A stretch of DNA of 44,980 nt from Alphaproteobacteria bacterium (GTDB taxonomy: Bacteria; Pseudomonadota; Alphaproteobacteria; HIMB59). A model generated the notes under the pieces. The model saw only the letters and a program-made list of their open reading frames with translations, did not search any database and was not told the DNA's origin. The stretch covers positions 1 to 44,980 of the forward strand of contig JAQWMI010000053.1 of NCBI GenBank assembly GCA_029246865.1. The letters are read 5' to 3'. Shown here in pieces: positions 40,003-43,981 of the stretch. Every line of letters begins with the position of its first letter. The first letter of the stretch is position 1. The position numbers were made by a program, and so were the translations under genes.

Positions 40003-41390
40003 TCAATGATGAGATATTAAGAGAGTACGATATAAGAGGTATTTACGGTTCCTCTTTAAAAAAAAACGATATCGTATCAATAGCAGATTCTATTAGTTCG
40101 ATTATAATTGATAATAAAATACCAGAAATTATTATTGGCCACGATGGGAGAGACTCATCCCTTGAAATAAAAAACTTACTTGTATCGTCAATTAACAATA
40201 ACGGGGTGAATGTAATTGACATCTCACTTGTTCCAACTCCTCTTTGTTATTATGCTACTAATAAAATAAAAATTCCTAATTCAATAATGATTACCGGATC
40301 TCACAATCCACAAGAATATAATGGATTTAAATTTATAATTAATAATGAGCCATTTTATGGTAAGCAAATAAAGAATTTAAATAATATTCAAATAAAAGAT
40401 AATCCTAAAAAAATAGGCCTATTGAAACATGTGAATATTGTAAGTACTTACGTAAATGAAATTTCAAATAAATTAAATATTAAAAAAGATTTAAAAATAG
40501 CTTGGGATATTGGTAATGGCGTAGTTGGATCTATGTTCCATAGTATTTTAAAAGCAATACCGGGTAACCATATAGTAATTAATTCTTCAGTTGACGGTAA
40601 TTTTCCTAATCACCACCCAGATCCTACTGTGTTGAAAAACAATATCCAAATTTCAAAATTAGTTCAGGAGCAAAATTGCGATTTAGGTATTTCTTTTGAT
40701 GGTGATGGGGATAGGCTTGGTATAATTGATAATAAGGGTCAGTTTGTTTATTCAGATATTGTGCTCTTGTTAATCTCAAAATTTATGTCTCTTACAATAA
40801 AAGACTTAACTGTTGTTGCAGACGTAAAATGTAGTCAAATCTTGTTTGATAATCTAAAAACTAATAATATCAATATTTTAATGAGTAAAACTGGTCATTC
40901 TCTTATTAAGAAAAAAATCAAAGAAACTAACGCTCATATTGCTGGTGAAATGAGTGGCCATATATTTTTTAATCATGATTACTACGGATTTGACGATGCA
41001 ATTTTTGCTGCATTTAAATTTTTAGAATATTTAACTGCTCAAGACAAAAAACTCAATGATATTGTGAATGACTATTTAATTTACTCTTCAAGCCCCGAGA
41101 TAAAGTTATACTGTAATGAGAATGTAAAGTTTAAAAATATTGATTCAATTATTAATAAAATTAAAGAAAATTCTCAAAATTTAATACTTAATGAGTTGGA
41201 TGGTATTAGAGTAGAGTCGAAAGATTTTTGGTATTTAATAAGAGCCTCGAACACGCAAAACTGCTTAGTTTTTAGGTTAGAGTGTAAGAAAAATTTAAAC
41301 TTTAAAGAAGAAATAAATAATATTCAAAAATTTCTTCAAGATTTTGATCTAGATTTATCTGAGTTAAATTCTTTTTACGAAACAATCTAA
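39999..41390 (+). CDS. Phosphomannomutase/phosphoglucomutase
   Basis: This alpha-D-phosphohexomutase interconverts hexose 1- and 6-phosphates for polysaccharide and lipopolysaccharide precursors. The start region has REYDIRGIYG; the phosphoserine S101 lies in TGSHNPQEYNGFK; the metal loop DGDGDR covers 234-239; the sugar-binding loop reads GEMSGHIFF; and the phosphate-binding loop near the C-terminus reads RASNTQN. At 463 residues it matches the AlgC/ManB type. Substrate preference cannot be fixed by sequence reading. Its final 27 bp overlap the convergent carboxypeptidase gene. Confidence 0.92.
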   Translation: MINDEILREYDIRGIYGSSLKKNDIVSIADSISSIIIDNKIPEIIIGHDGRDSSLEIKNLLVSSINNNGVNVIDISLVPTPLCYYATNKIKIPNSIMITGSHNPQEYNGFKFIINNEPFYGKQIKNLNNIQIKDNPKKIGLLKHVNIVSTYVNEISNKLNIKKDLKIAWDIGNGVVGSMFHSILKAIPGNHIVINSSVDGNFPNHHPDPTVLKNNIQISKLVQEQNCDLGISFDGDGDRLGIIDNKGQFVYSDIVLLLISKFMSLTIKDLTVVADVKCSQILFDNLKTNNINILMSKTGHSLIKKKIKETNAHIAGEMSGHIFFNHDYYGFDDAIFAAFKFLEYLTAQDKKLNDIVNDYLIYSSSPEIKLYCNENVKFKNIDSIINKIKENSQNLILNELDGIRVESKDFWYLIRASNTQNCLVFRLECKKNLNFKEEINNIQKFLQDFDLDLSELNSFYETI

Positions 41391-42425
41391 TTTTTTATCT
41401 TTTAATAATTCGCATAATTTATATGCATCATTTTTACTTAACGAATTAGTAATAGTGATAAAATACTTACCTTTTATCTCAATATTGTGTGTTAAGTATT
41501 TAATTTCATTAAGATATTTTTTTTTAATGAGAGATAATACAAACTCTTTACTTTTTTTAACGTTCCTAAAGGATGAAGTTTGAACTTTATAATTTAAACT
41601 ATTTGAACTTTTTAAGGGTTCATTCACTTTATTCTTATTGGTATTACGTTCCTTAGCTATTTTATTCATTAAAAAGTGTATCTTATCATTTCTTTCTTTA
41701 GCAGAATTACCTCCAAAATATATACCTAGCATTGGTTCTTCATCAAATATTCCTAGCAATGCAATTTGAAAACCTGATTTTCTTATATATCCTGTTTTGA
41801 GTCCTTTATAATACTTATATTTAGAAACAAGTTTGTTGTGCGTATTGTATTTAACTCCATTAATAACAGTTTTTGTTTTATTAAAATATTTTCTATATTC
41901 AGGAAAATCATTATAAATTGCTGAACCAAGTAAAAACATATCATGTGCAGAAGAAATATTAGATCTATTAGGTAATCCATTGGGGTTAGCAAAATTTGTA
42001 TTTTTCATATTAATTCTTTGAGCATACACATTCATTAATTTTACAAATTTTTTCTCAGTACCAGATATTTTCTCCGCTATTGCTACCGCAGCATCATTTC
42101 CTGATTTGATAATTAATCCTAAAATGATTTCATCAACATTTATTGATTTGCCGGCAGGTATATTGATTCTTGATGGTTGTTGACTTGCTGCATTATGACT
42201 AAATACAACCTTATCTTCTTTAGATATTTTATTGTTCTTTAATTCATCAAATATTATATAGAGAGTCATCATTTTAGTTAAAGATGCTGGATAATTTTTT
42301 GTATCTTTGTTTACATTAAAATAAATATCCCCGTTAACTGGATTACCTATTACTGAAGCTATTTTTGCATTTAAATCAAATGAAATGATTAAATTAATTG
42401 TTAACGCTATTAATATGATTCTCAT
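41364..42425 (-). CDS. dacA: D-alanyl-D-alanine carboxypeptidase (DacA/PBP5-6 family) with SPOR-like tail
   Basis: This exported serine peptidase trims the terminal D-Ala of peptidoglycan stem peptides. A signal peptide covers about residues 1-20. The catalytic motifs are S48-L-T-K51, S108-G-N110 and K210-T-G212, in the usual spacing. Instead of the usual PBP5 C-terminal beta domain and membrane anchor, residues about 278-353 (YKVQTSSFRNVKKSKEF onwards) look like a SPOR domain that binds denuded septal glycan. The 353-residue length fits this architecture, which is common in alphaproteobacteria. It faces the NDUFA12 operon across a 58-bp divergent gap. Confidence 0.9.
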   Translation of the reverse strand: MRIILIALTINLIISFDLNAKIASVIGNPVNGDIYFNVNKDTKNYPASLTKMMTLYIIFDELKNNKISKEDKVVFSHNAASQQPSRINIPAGKSINVDEIILGLIIKSGNDAAVAIAEKISGTEKKFVKLMNVYAQRINMKNTNFANPNGLPNRSNISSAHDMFLLGSAIYNDFPEYRKYFNKTKTVINGVKYNTHNKLVSKYKYYKGLKTGYIRKSGFQIALLGIFDEEPMLGIYFGGNSAKERNDKIHFLMNKIAKERNTNKNKVNEPLKSSNSLNYKVQTSSFRNVKKSKEFVLSLIKKKYLNEIKYLTHNIEIKGKYFITITNSLSKNDAYKLCELLKDKKLDCFVKRI

Positions 42426-42483: not shown

Positions 42484-42789
42484 ATGTCCCTTGGATTTAA
42501 AATATATTCTTACCTAAATGGTAAAGTTATAGGAAAAGATACTTTTGGTAACACTTTTTTTGTGAGTAAAAAAAACTTATCCAAAAGGTGGGTTATTTAC
42601 GCAAAAGGGTTTGGTCCTGACTCTTTACCTACTAACTATCATAATTGGTTACATAGCACGACTGATGAATTACCTTATTTTGATAAAGACGTCGAAAGAA
42701 CCCAAAGCATTGTAAGAAGACGTGTTAATAAACATGTAATCAAAAAGAATGCTAACTCTCAAGGATATACTTCTTGGCAGCCAAAGTAG
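42484..42789 (+). CDS. NDUFA12-family protein (complex I 17.2-kDa accessory subunit homologue)
   Basis: In alphaproteobacteria and mitochondria this family is an accessory subunit of NADH:ubiquinone oxidoreductase. The 101 residues show GNTFFVSKK near the start, RWVIYAKGFGPDSLPTNYHN and WLHSTTDELP, the conserved family core. The nuo genes are not in this window. It is the first gene of the MCE/DUF2155 operon and overlaps the next gene by 16 bp. This family is a good marker for alphaproteobacterial origin. Confidence 0.9.
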   Translation: MSLGFKIYSYLNGKVIGKDTFGNTFFVSKKNLSKRWVIYAKGFGPDSLPTNYHNWLHSTTDELPYFDKDVERTQSIVRRRVNKHVIKKNANSQGYTSWQPK

Positions 42790-43244
42790 TAAAAGAAATA
42801 GACGAAATAAGTAAAAATACTTTGCTTAAATTTGGTCTAATAACTATAGTAATTTTTTTACTTTTTTTCTTTTTATTTACTAAAACTAATTTAGATAAAA
42901 ACAATTTCTCTTTTCAGGCTACATTTAATACTGTCAATGGATTATCTGAAAAATCAACAGTTTTGTATGCAGGAATTGAAGTTGGTTATGTTACACAAAT
43001 CACATTACTTGAAAATAACAAAGTGCGCATAAATGGTTTAATTAAAAATGAAATACCAATACCATCTGACTCAATATTACAAATTAATACTGATGGTATT
43101 TTTGGAAAAAAATATCTAAATATAGTACCTGGTTATGATGAATATTTTGTAAGTAAAGATATTGTATTTAAGTATACAAGTGACTCATATACTATGGATT
43201 ATCTTGCAAGAGTATTAGAAAATAATATTAATGAAAAAAATTAA
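42774..43244 (+). CDS. MCE-domain (MlaD-like) membrane protein, first of tandem pair, TTG start
   Basis: MCE proteins bind lipids in the periplasm and pair with ABC transporters that move phospholipids between membranes. This 156-residue protein has a short cytoplasmic N-terminus, one membrane helix (about 18-36) and a single MCE domain with TFNTVNGLSEKSTVLYAGIE, VGYVTQI and IPSDSILQINTDGIFGKKYL. The start is TTG at 42774, supported by AAGGA at 42761-42765 with 8-base spacing. It overlaps the NDUFA12-like gene by 16 bp and the second MCE gene by 14 bp. No mlaE or mlaF lies nearby. Confidence 0.85.
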   Translation: MAAKVVKEIDEISKNTLLKFGLITIVIFLLFFFLFTKTNLDKNNFSFQATFNTVNGLSEKSTVLYAGIEVGYVTQITLLENNKVRINGLIKNEIPIPSDSILQINTDGIFGKKYLNIVPGYDEYFVSKDIVFKYTSDSYTMDYLARVLENNINEKN

Positions 43245-43674
43245 CAAAGAAGTATTTTTGGGAGTAATTATTATTTTACTTAGCTTGATAATATTTATTA
43301 ATTTATTTAATAGTTACAATTTAAATAATTCAAATAACGCTTCTTTTTATCTTAATTCTGAATTCAATAATGTTGGAAGTTTGTCTGTAGGAAATGATAT
43401 AAAAATTCATGGCGTTAAAGTAGGAGAGGTTACCAAGATTTCAATAAATCCAGAGTTATTTGTTGCTAATGTTATTATTAAATTTAATAATTTTTACAAA
43501 ATTCCTTCTGATAGTATTTTTACGATAACTAGTAATGGGCTGATGGGAGGATCTTATATTGATATCAAAATTGGATCTTCTGATCTAATATTTAATGAAA
43601 ATGAAACTAGTAAATATAATATAGATGCAATCTCTATTGAAAACATTATCTCTGATATTATTTTTGCTGATTAG
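43231..43674 (+). CDS. mlaD: MCE-domain (MlaD-like) membrane protein, second of tandem pair
   Basis: This 147-residue protein repeats the plan of its upstream neighbour: a membrane helix at about 8-26 and one MCE domain with EFNNVGSLSVGNDIKIHGVK, VGEVTKI and SNGLMGGSYIDIKIG. Its ending (ISIENIISDIIF) resembles the last helix of E. coli MlaD, so this copy is the better MlaD candidate. The two copies are clearly divergent from one another. Its 3' end overlaps the DUF2155 gene by 50 bp. Confidence 0.85.
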   Translation: MKKINKEVFLGVIIILLSLIIFINLFNSYNLNNSNNASFYLNSEFNNVGSLSVGNDIKIHGVKVGEVTKISINPELFVANVIIKFNNFYKIPSDSIFTITSNGLMGGSYIDIKIGSSDLIFNENETSKYNIDAISIENIISDIIFAD

Positions 43675-43981
43675 CTTTAATTGTAATCTATCTGCCGAGA
43701 TAGGATTAAAAAATGCTAATATAGTAATTTTAGATAAATCATCTTCCACAAAATACTATTTATCAATGTCTAAAAATTCAATTTTTAGGTCACTTAAATT
43801 TGAAATTCTTTCCTGTCAGCTTTTAAGTTTTGAAAAATATGATGATCAGGTTGCCTTAATTAAAATATCTAATTCTATTGATAATTCTAAATTTACAGGA
43901 TGGTTTTTTTCTAAAACTGAAGAACTTAATCTTTTTTCTGATAAAATTTATGAAATTAGCCTTATTAATTGTAATGGTTAA
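43625..43981 (+). CDS. DUF2155 family exported protein
   Basis: The family is of unknown function and typical of alphaproteobacteria. The 118 residues begin with a signal peptide (about 1-24, ending NLSA). The mature part shows the family pattern: LDKSSSTKYYLSM, a pair of cysteines (C63 region EILSCQLL and the terminal LINC), and FTGWFFSKTEELNLFSDKIY. A TTG at 43637 is a possible alternative start that would keep the signal peptide and shorten the 50-bp overlap with the MCE gene. Its stop overlaps the accC stop on the other strand by 4 bp. Confidence 0.83.
   Translation: MQSLLKTLSLILFLLISFNCNLSAEIGLKNANIVILDKSSSTKYYLSMSKNSIFRSLKFEILSCQLLSFEKYDDQVALIKISNSIDNSKFTGWFFSKTEELNLFSDKIYEISLINCNG

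Follow-up and report, generated by a model that had tools for sequence, protein, structure and literature searches.

Why does a genome encode two different single-domain MCE proteins side by side, at a locus where one MlaD-like gene is usual? We addressed this question in the window, the whole 44,980-nucleotide stretch of DNA analysed here (contig JAQWMI010000053.1 of the alphaproteobacterial assembly GCA_029246865.1, lineage HIMB59). The locus lies on the + strand in the order NDUFA12, MCE-A, MCE-B and DUF2155, each ORF overlapping the next, and comprises the following features.

42484..42789, + strand: NDUFA12 family gene, the upstream neighbour (PF05071, 50.1 bits, cut-off 23)
42774..43244, + strand: MCE-A, the upstream MlaD paralog, with membrane anchor, MCE domain and short C-terminal helix (PF02470, 62.2 bits)
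42813..42899, + strand: predicted transmembrane helix of MCE-A, residues 14-42, including the Gly that matches Gly11 of E. coli MlaD (model and alignment)
43098..43103, + strand: pore pair Ile109-Phe110 of MCE-A, aligned to E. coli MlaD Leu106-Leu107 (alignment)
43197..43232, + strand: C-terminal helix of MCE-A, residues 142-153 (model and alignment)
43231..43674, + strand: MCE-B, downstream and MlaD-like (PF02470, 66.3 bits)
43246..43332, + strand: predicted transmembrane helix of MCE-B, residues 6-34, including Glu7 and Gly11 (model and alignment)
43540..43545, + strand: pore pair Leu104-Met105 of MCE-B, aligned to E. coli MlaD Leu106-Leu107 (alignment)
43636..43665, + strand: C-terminal helix of MCE-B, residues 136-145, with Phe145 in the place of E. 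coli Tyr152 (model and alignment)
43625..43981, + strand: DUF2155 gene, the downstream neighbour (PF09923, 51.3 bits, cut-off 27)

MCE-A has 156 aa counted from the first TTG, a putative start codon, and MCE-B, which opens with ATG, has 147 aa. The ORFs of NDUFA12 and MCE-A overlap by 16 nt and those of MCE-A and MCE-B by 14 nt; the first-start ORF of DUF2155 also overlaps MCE-B, and its true start may be later. These observations agree with the preliminary description, which had read here two different, overlapping single-domain MCE genes in tandem between NDUFA12 and DUF2155, with differing key loops (GKKYLNIVPG against GGSYIDIKIG). In the profile search against MCE families that it had proposed, both proteins exceeded the cut-off of 25.1 of the Pfam MlaD model PF02470. 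Both were under the cut-off of 135 of TIGR04430, the NCBIfam MlaD equivalog (MCE-A 76.8 and MCE-B 106.3 bits). A chance match was rejected, as both proteins are over the Pfam cut-off and 29% identical to each other (30/103). The possibility of one gene split by a sequencing error was also rejected: each gene spans an MCE domain, and the same pair, with both genes intact, was present in 23/23 genomes of the genus that have an MCE match. MCE-A and MCE-B were the only MCE domains found in their own genome (1.29 Mb, 93% complete). Beside the MCE locus, on the - strand of the window (41364-42425), lies a D-Ala-D-Ala carboxypeptidase gene (Peptidase_S11) with a weak C-terminal SPOR domain.

The genus-level search covered 60 genomes: the window's own, 36 other members of the genus and 23 genomes from a sister family. 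MCE matches were found in 23/60, all of the same genus (its own included), and each of these genomes had exactly two, in tandem. The 14 other genomes of the genus that were searched, most of them incomplete, gave no MCE match. One same-genus genome that is 94% complete (G020) has MlaE, MlaC and MlaA and no MCE match, which may be a real loss or an assembly gap. The 16-nt overlap of NDUFA12 with MCE-A was identical in 21 of the 22 genus genomes in which NDUFA12 was found. A profile scan with the genus MCE-A alignment returned 27 named loci, all carrying the pair, under the names 'alpha proteobacterium HIMB59', 'Pelagibacteraceae', 'Proteobacteria bacterium' and uncultured Alphaproteobacteria. 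These names point to the marine HIMB59 group, which the title of PMC10308909 treats as a single clade with AEGEAN-169.

Across the class, an MCE domain was present in 364 of 387 genomes at least 90% complete. Loci from this survey were inspected in batches of 56, 58 and 65 genomes, and small genomes with at least two MCE matches were taken first, so that the sample is non-random. In total, with the genus loci included, the MCE locus was read in 209 alphaproteobacterial genomes from 141 families: 69 genomes carried a tandem (31/141 families, about a fifth of those read) and 140 a single gene. A peculiarity of the window's own genome was rejected on these counts. In 110/141 families the loci inspected showed single MCE genes alone (10 of these families had neither flanking gene), in line with the preliminary statement that one MlaD-like gene is usual here.

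By profile score, 65 of the 69 tandem genomes, from 27 families, had an A-type gene upstream and a B-type gene downstream, where the A/B call is a score difference of 10 bits (a threshold of our own choice) and 22 of the 65 tandems lie outside the profile-training rows, 16 of those 22 being from the window's genus. The A score minus the B/single score was +79 bits for MCE-A and -46 bits for MCE-B, both of them rows of the training set, and only +14 to +21 bits for the A genes of f54, f65, f98 and f16. Among single genes flanked by NDUFA12 or DUF2155, an A-type gene was found in 0/127, 101 of which lie outside the training rows; 13 further single MCE genes have neither neighbour. We conclude that the pair is a class-wide MlaD variant, not a single-genome oddity. 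The suggestion that tandem copies with known separate roles might be standard in the clade held for the tandem itself (23/23 genus genomes with MCE; 27 families) but not for the roles, as none appeared in the titles and abstract openings searched. A few genomes (e.g. G293, G080 and G164) have short, non-adjacent second MCE genes. In one genome (G130, family f73), locus L228 (2829-4308) has a run of three single-domain MCE genes, flanked by NDUFA12 and DUF2155: copy 1 is A-like, copy 2 is B-like, and copy 3 is without aromatic 136, Gln138, small 148 and aromatic 152.

The absence of a permease or ATPase gene next to the pair, also remarked on in the preliminary description, is true locally; MlaE lies with an ABC ATPase on another contig (C17). 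This was the one MlaE match in the genome, with scores of 234.3 bits for TIGR00056 (over 212.2) and 187.3 for NF033619 (under 315). The ATPase ORF adjoins MlaE; the MlaF model gave 124.6 bits against a cut-off of 441, and other ABC models scored higher. Both genes are flanked by what we take, from the translations, to be dnaB-like and CvpA/purF-like genes. MlaC (70.7 bits) and MlaA (181.6 bits) gave one match each, side by side on contig C15. The Mla parts are distributed over three loci. Both IF1 glycines of MlaE were kept in 26/26 aligned MlaE rows of the genus (fragment L057 left out). The sister family f2 (e.g. L156-L175) had MlaA and MlaC in 15/15 genomes tested, and no MlaE or MCE domain was found in 23/23 genomes searched; this family apparently has an Mla system without the inner-membrane transporter.

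Predicted models and fold matches gave both proteins an N-terminal membrane helix, an MCE barrel and a C-terminal helix (AF2 monomer pLDDT 83.4 for MCE-A and 83.0 for MCE-B). In a search of solved folds, E. coli MlaD was the best match of MCE-B, while the Mce1B and Mce1C chains were top by E-value for MCE-A, with MlaD nearly tied. A weak match to MCE-A was chain I of PDB 13hr, a 312-residue 'Mce/MlaD domain-containing protein' present in 8 chains. In the C-terminal helix of MCE-A, Arg replaces Gly148 and Asn replaces Tyr152 (E. coli MlaD positions). The preliminary description had stated that only the second protein ends like MlaD, and throughout the genus the aromatic residue at the Tyr152 place was indeed found in 23/23 B and 0/23 A proteins.

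We then asked how this difference extends across the class. The alignment joined 65 A and 65 B proteins and 127 single-copy ones with E. coli K-12 MlaD, and residues were counted by family (27 A, 27 B and 101 single-copy), leaving out the four odd tandems (f127, f62, f83 and f73) and the 13 unflanked single genes. Four features were kept by B and by single-copy proteins: a small residue at 148 (A 0/27, B 26/27, single 97/101), an aromatic residue at 152 (0/27, 25/27, 92/101), Glu7 (12/27, 27/27, 98/101) and Lys/Arg64 (6/27, 24/27, 94/101). Others went the opposite way: Gln138 (A 20/27, B 1/27, single 87/101), aromatic 136 (20/27, 0/27, 61/101), Ser/Ala140 (23/27, 5/27, 73/101) and Leu146 (21/27, 7/27, 85/101). 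Likewise, the beta6-7 loop (117-128) was net negative in 23 A, 8 B and 93 single-copy families (A versus B, p 5e-7). Gly11 was kept by both (27/27, 27/27, 100/101). The hydrophobic pore residue 106 was present in 65/65 A proteins, and Phe at the pore position in 43/65 A against 4/65 B proteins (13/27 against 2/27 families). The residue columns were chosen after viewing the alignment. The transmembrane Ala aligned to E. coli Ala20 (small in A 6/27, B 24/27, single 94/101) was excluded as evidence because it can be aligned only by opening a gap of two residues within the helix.

A scan of 91 positions conserved in single-copy proteins, run with classes and thresholds of our own, found 18 lost in A alone, 5 in B alone and 3 in both. 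All 5 B-only losses lie within 117-158, a region holding 20/91 positions (Fisher p 0.0003), and 16/18 A-only losses lie outside it, transmembrane positions among them. Single-copy MlaD holds both residue sets; taking the single-copy state as ancestral, which is an assumption, A lost small-148 and aromatic-152, and B lost the acidic loop and the Gln138 segment. A changed widely, yet it retains the other half of the stretch formed by the loop and the C-terminal helix, and the B-only losses are confined to that stretch.

Within the genus (23 pairs), the division was sharp at aromatic 152, at Glu7 (A 0, B 22), at Gln138 (A 16, B 0), at aromatic 118 (E. coli Phe118; A 23, B 0) and at pore position 107 (Phe in 23 A and 0 B). 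E. coli Phe118 is a cross-link site to MlaC. Other positions were blurred: small-148 was found in only 2 B (A 0), Leu146 and aromatic-136 in 2 A each, and Lys/Arg64 in 18 A. The window's own MCE-A has Ser rather than Gln at 138, and its own MCE-B has Tyr at 136.

Some tandems outside the A/B arrangement carry a similar division. In f83, copy 1 has Phe136, Gln138, an acidic loop and Leu152, with Gly148 kept; copy 2 has Arg136, Glu138, Gly148 and Phe152, and its loop is less acidic. In a single-copy f83 relative the residues are Phe136, Gln138, Gly148 and Phe152. The f127 copies stand in the opposite order: Tyr136, Ala148 and Leu152 are in copy 2, Asn136, Gly148 and Phe152 in copy 1, and Gln138 in both; in f62, copy 2 retains both sets and copy 1 lost 136. 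The two f83 copies group together (95 in the 103-row tree described below, 98/82 in the careful tree), and they therefore represent a duplication of their own. Another probably gave rise to the copies of f62 and f127, which group only weakly (93/41, careful tree) but come from genomes that the rpoB tree places as sisters (99). Thus, as far as alignments of these few cases go, read once the pattern was known, the split seems to recur partially in side duplications, in f83 and more weakly in f62/f127.

Trees of MCE copies from related genomes, as proposed in the preliminary description, were built with and without outgroups. In a quick tree of 79 rows, with no outgroups and the f73 triple left out, 27 A rows (the window's MCE-A included) lie on one side of a branch with SH-aLRT 96; on the other side are B, the single copies and six rows of the side duplications f83, f62 and f127, which were labelled apart. 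By this tree and by profile score, MCE-B falls on the side of single-copy alphaproteobacterial MlaD. In a quick 103-row tree, 36/40 A rows fell together on the same side of a branch with 97% support. In the careful tree with outgroups, A was not one group (30 A rows, including 3 recent side duplicates; 6 changes, 0/200 bootstrap trees); its root is unreliable, since the outgroups were five very distant long MCE rows and an E. coli MlaD sequence that joined the fast B rows of the window's genus. An rpoB tree was built for 30 genomes, 17 of which have A/B tandems. These 17 did not form one clade, and one clade was not rejected (AU p 0.41), so that either one gain with losses or transfer would fit.

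How might the two proteins work together? In E. coli, as described in the available text of PMC11289387, MlaC rests mainly on one chain, MlaD1, at the negatively charged beta6-7 loop and near Lys138, and also contacts the neighbour chain MlaD6 at the Gly148 pocket; Tyr152 is a cross-link site, with the chain unnamed. According to PMC7790496, MlaE is two-fold and is contacted by the six MlaD anchors in three non-equivalent ways, Gly11 packs on MlaE Gly10 and Gly21, and Leu106 and Leu107 are the pore residues. We hypothesize that MCE-A and MCE-B are divided MlaD copies that would be built side by side into the same hexameric ring of a single MlaFE transporter. Both anchors would dock on MlaE through Gly11. 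MlaC would dock at the A-B border, where the acidic beta6-7 loop and Gln138 segment of A would meet the small-148 pocket and aromatic 152 of B, and lipid would reach a common pore by moving between the C-terminal helices of A and B; in the window this pore would be lined by Ile-Phe from A and Leu-Met from B. Such a mixed ring would offer fewer, defined MlaC docking sites, compared with six equal ones in a homohexamer.

We consider it somewhat probable, from the pattern of residues, that A and B assemble as neighbours in one mixed hexameric ring on a single MlaFE. The mixed hexamer is favoured because the residue losses are reciprocal, one MlaE was found and no A-type gene was seen alone at the loci read; neighbours in one ring are favoured because two separate rings would each be without one half of the MlaC-side residues, while a mixed ring has both. 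A stronger form, which we put forward tentatively, is that this would be an obligate mixed ring of two MlaD paralogs in a Gram-negative Mla system, in which A and B each give half of every MlaC site, so that six equal sites become fixed sites, with partial division arising again in f83 and, more weakly, in f62/f127.

The best of the competing explanations is that separate homohexamers, A6 and B6, alternate on the same MlaFE core for different lipids, partners or conditions. Each protein has its own predicted anchor, MCE domain and C-terminal helix, and the two differ in Phe at the pore position, which are points in favour of this reading. We regard this as unlikely, since each homohexamer would be without half of the MlaC-side residues kept by single-copy MlaD, the ORFs overlap in the genus and in 40/68 A/B pairs overall, and no A-type gene without B was found at the locus. 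Slightly less likely still, in our view, is that B alone forms the working MlaD ring and that A is an accessory, docked on MlaE by its anchor and regulating or stabilising the transporter from outside the ring. The greater divergence of A, with its 16 losses outside 117-158, and the position of B on the single-copy side of the tree would fit such a division of labour, but A keeps hydrophobic 106, the MCE fold and the acidic loop (23/27 families), which would hardly be needed outside a ring.

Proteins with three or seven consecutive MCE domains stack as rings. Two stacked rings here, A on B, would likewise form a longer channel, and the existence of such multidomain proteins is described in PMC5561183. 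We consider this very improbable because the MCE barrel begins only 2 residues (MCE-A) or 5 residues (MCE-B) after the membrane helix in the models, in a stretch of moderate confidence; an MlaC shuttle is also present. The preliminary description had left a choice between a mixed hexamer and two rings; the former is the better supported, by the reciprocal losses, the one MlaE and the lack of a lone A, and stacked rings have become the less likely part of it. That A is a decaying duplicate without function can practically be dismissed: A rows are longer-branched than B rows in our trees, but dN/dS was 0.13-0.37 in the 40 closest A pairs among the matches listed, and A is retained in 27 families.

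Several observations speak against the mixed ring. The genus blurs the split at small-148, aromatic-136, Leu146 and Lys/Arg64; the excess of A-only over B-only losses (18 versus 5) is unexplained by the sharing of one job; the side duplications are partial (Gly148 in f83 copy 1, Gln138 in both f127 copies, both sets in f62 copy 2); and the careful outgroup tree fails to hold A together. In E. coli, moreover, two single MlaC changes facing the MlaD helix were tolerated, and co-evolution was not seen there, as far as the accessible part of PMC11289387 reports. The comparison with E. coli MlaD is itself loose, because at 138 that protein carries Lys instead of Gln, and its loop exceeds that of nearly all proteins of the three groups by about five residues.

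Compared with E. coli MlaFEDB, whose MlaD is a homohexamer (PDB 6XBD, 8OJ4), the system shares a single-MCE anchored protein with the MCE fold, the pore pair and the C-terminal helix, an MlaE with two IF1 glycines, and MlaC and MlaA in the genome. It is unlike it in having two diverged MlaD paralogs, encoded away from mlaE, with the MlaC-side residues divided between them. For Alphaproteobacteria, PMC5561183 has already reported NDUFA12 as the upstream neighbour of a type I (single-domain) MCE gene. The same NDUFA12-MCE-DUF2155 locus holds single-copy alphaproteobacterial MlaD, on whose side B falls; there, as far as the text available from that paper goes, one type I gene is present, whereas here a second paralog precedes it. 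We read the tandem A/B pair as this known locus type with a distinct paralog added, and favour the mixed ring as the idea that goes with it; what suggests the ring is that the two genes have lost different parts of single-copy MlaD.

The described mixed ring is mycobacterial: Mce1 is built from six proteins and is contrasted with the homohexamers MlaD, PqiB and LetB in the available part of PMC9882608. If our hypothesis is true, a mixed MCE ring would also exist in a Gram-negative Mla system. Mce1 (PDB 8FED-8FEF) resembles the arrangement proposed here in forming a ring from different MCE paralogs, and its Mce1B and Mce1C chains are, by E-value and nearly tied with MlaD, the top folds for MCE-A. 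It differs in its six long proteins, its needle and its YrbE1A/B permease pair (PMC9882608); here there are two proteins, both short, a single MlaE, and MlaC, which is soluble. The mycobacterial Mce set of six MCE proteins and two YrbE proteins has no equivalent in this genome, in which two MCE domains and one MlaE were found.

We found no description of paired MlaD genes in the literature searched, which comprised titles and abstract openings, most subscription papers lying outside the search. In PMC11289387 and PMC7790496, the number and place of MlaC on the MlaD ring, and the way a two-fold MlaE copes with six-fold symmetry in the ring, are treated as open or unusual points. For these questions split-MlaD genomes are a natural experiment, in which kept and lost residues point to the job of each chain.

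Finally, Brucella Mpc also pairs an MCE protein, MpcD, with an MlaE-like partner in the Alphaproteobacteria. According to the part of PMC12436622 available, MpcD has 331 aa and an extended C-terminal domain, unlike the 156 and 147 aa of the two proteins here. In our tree, five MCE proteins of the class of about 300 aa, called MpcD-like by length only, fall apart from MCE-A and MCE-B.
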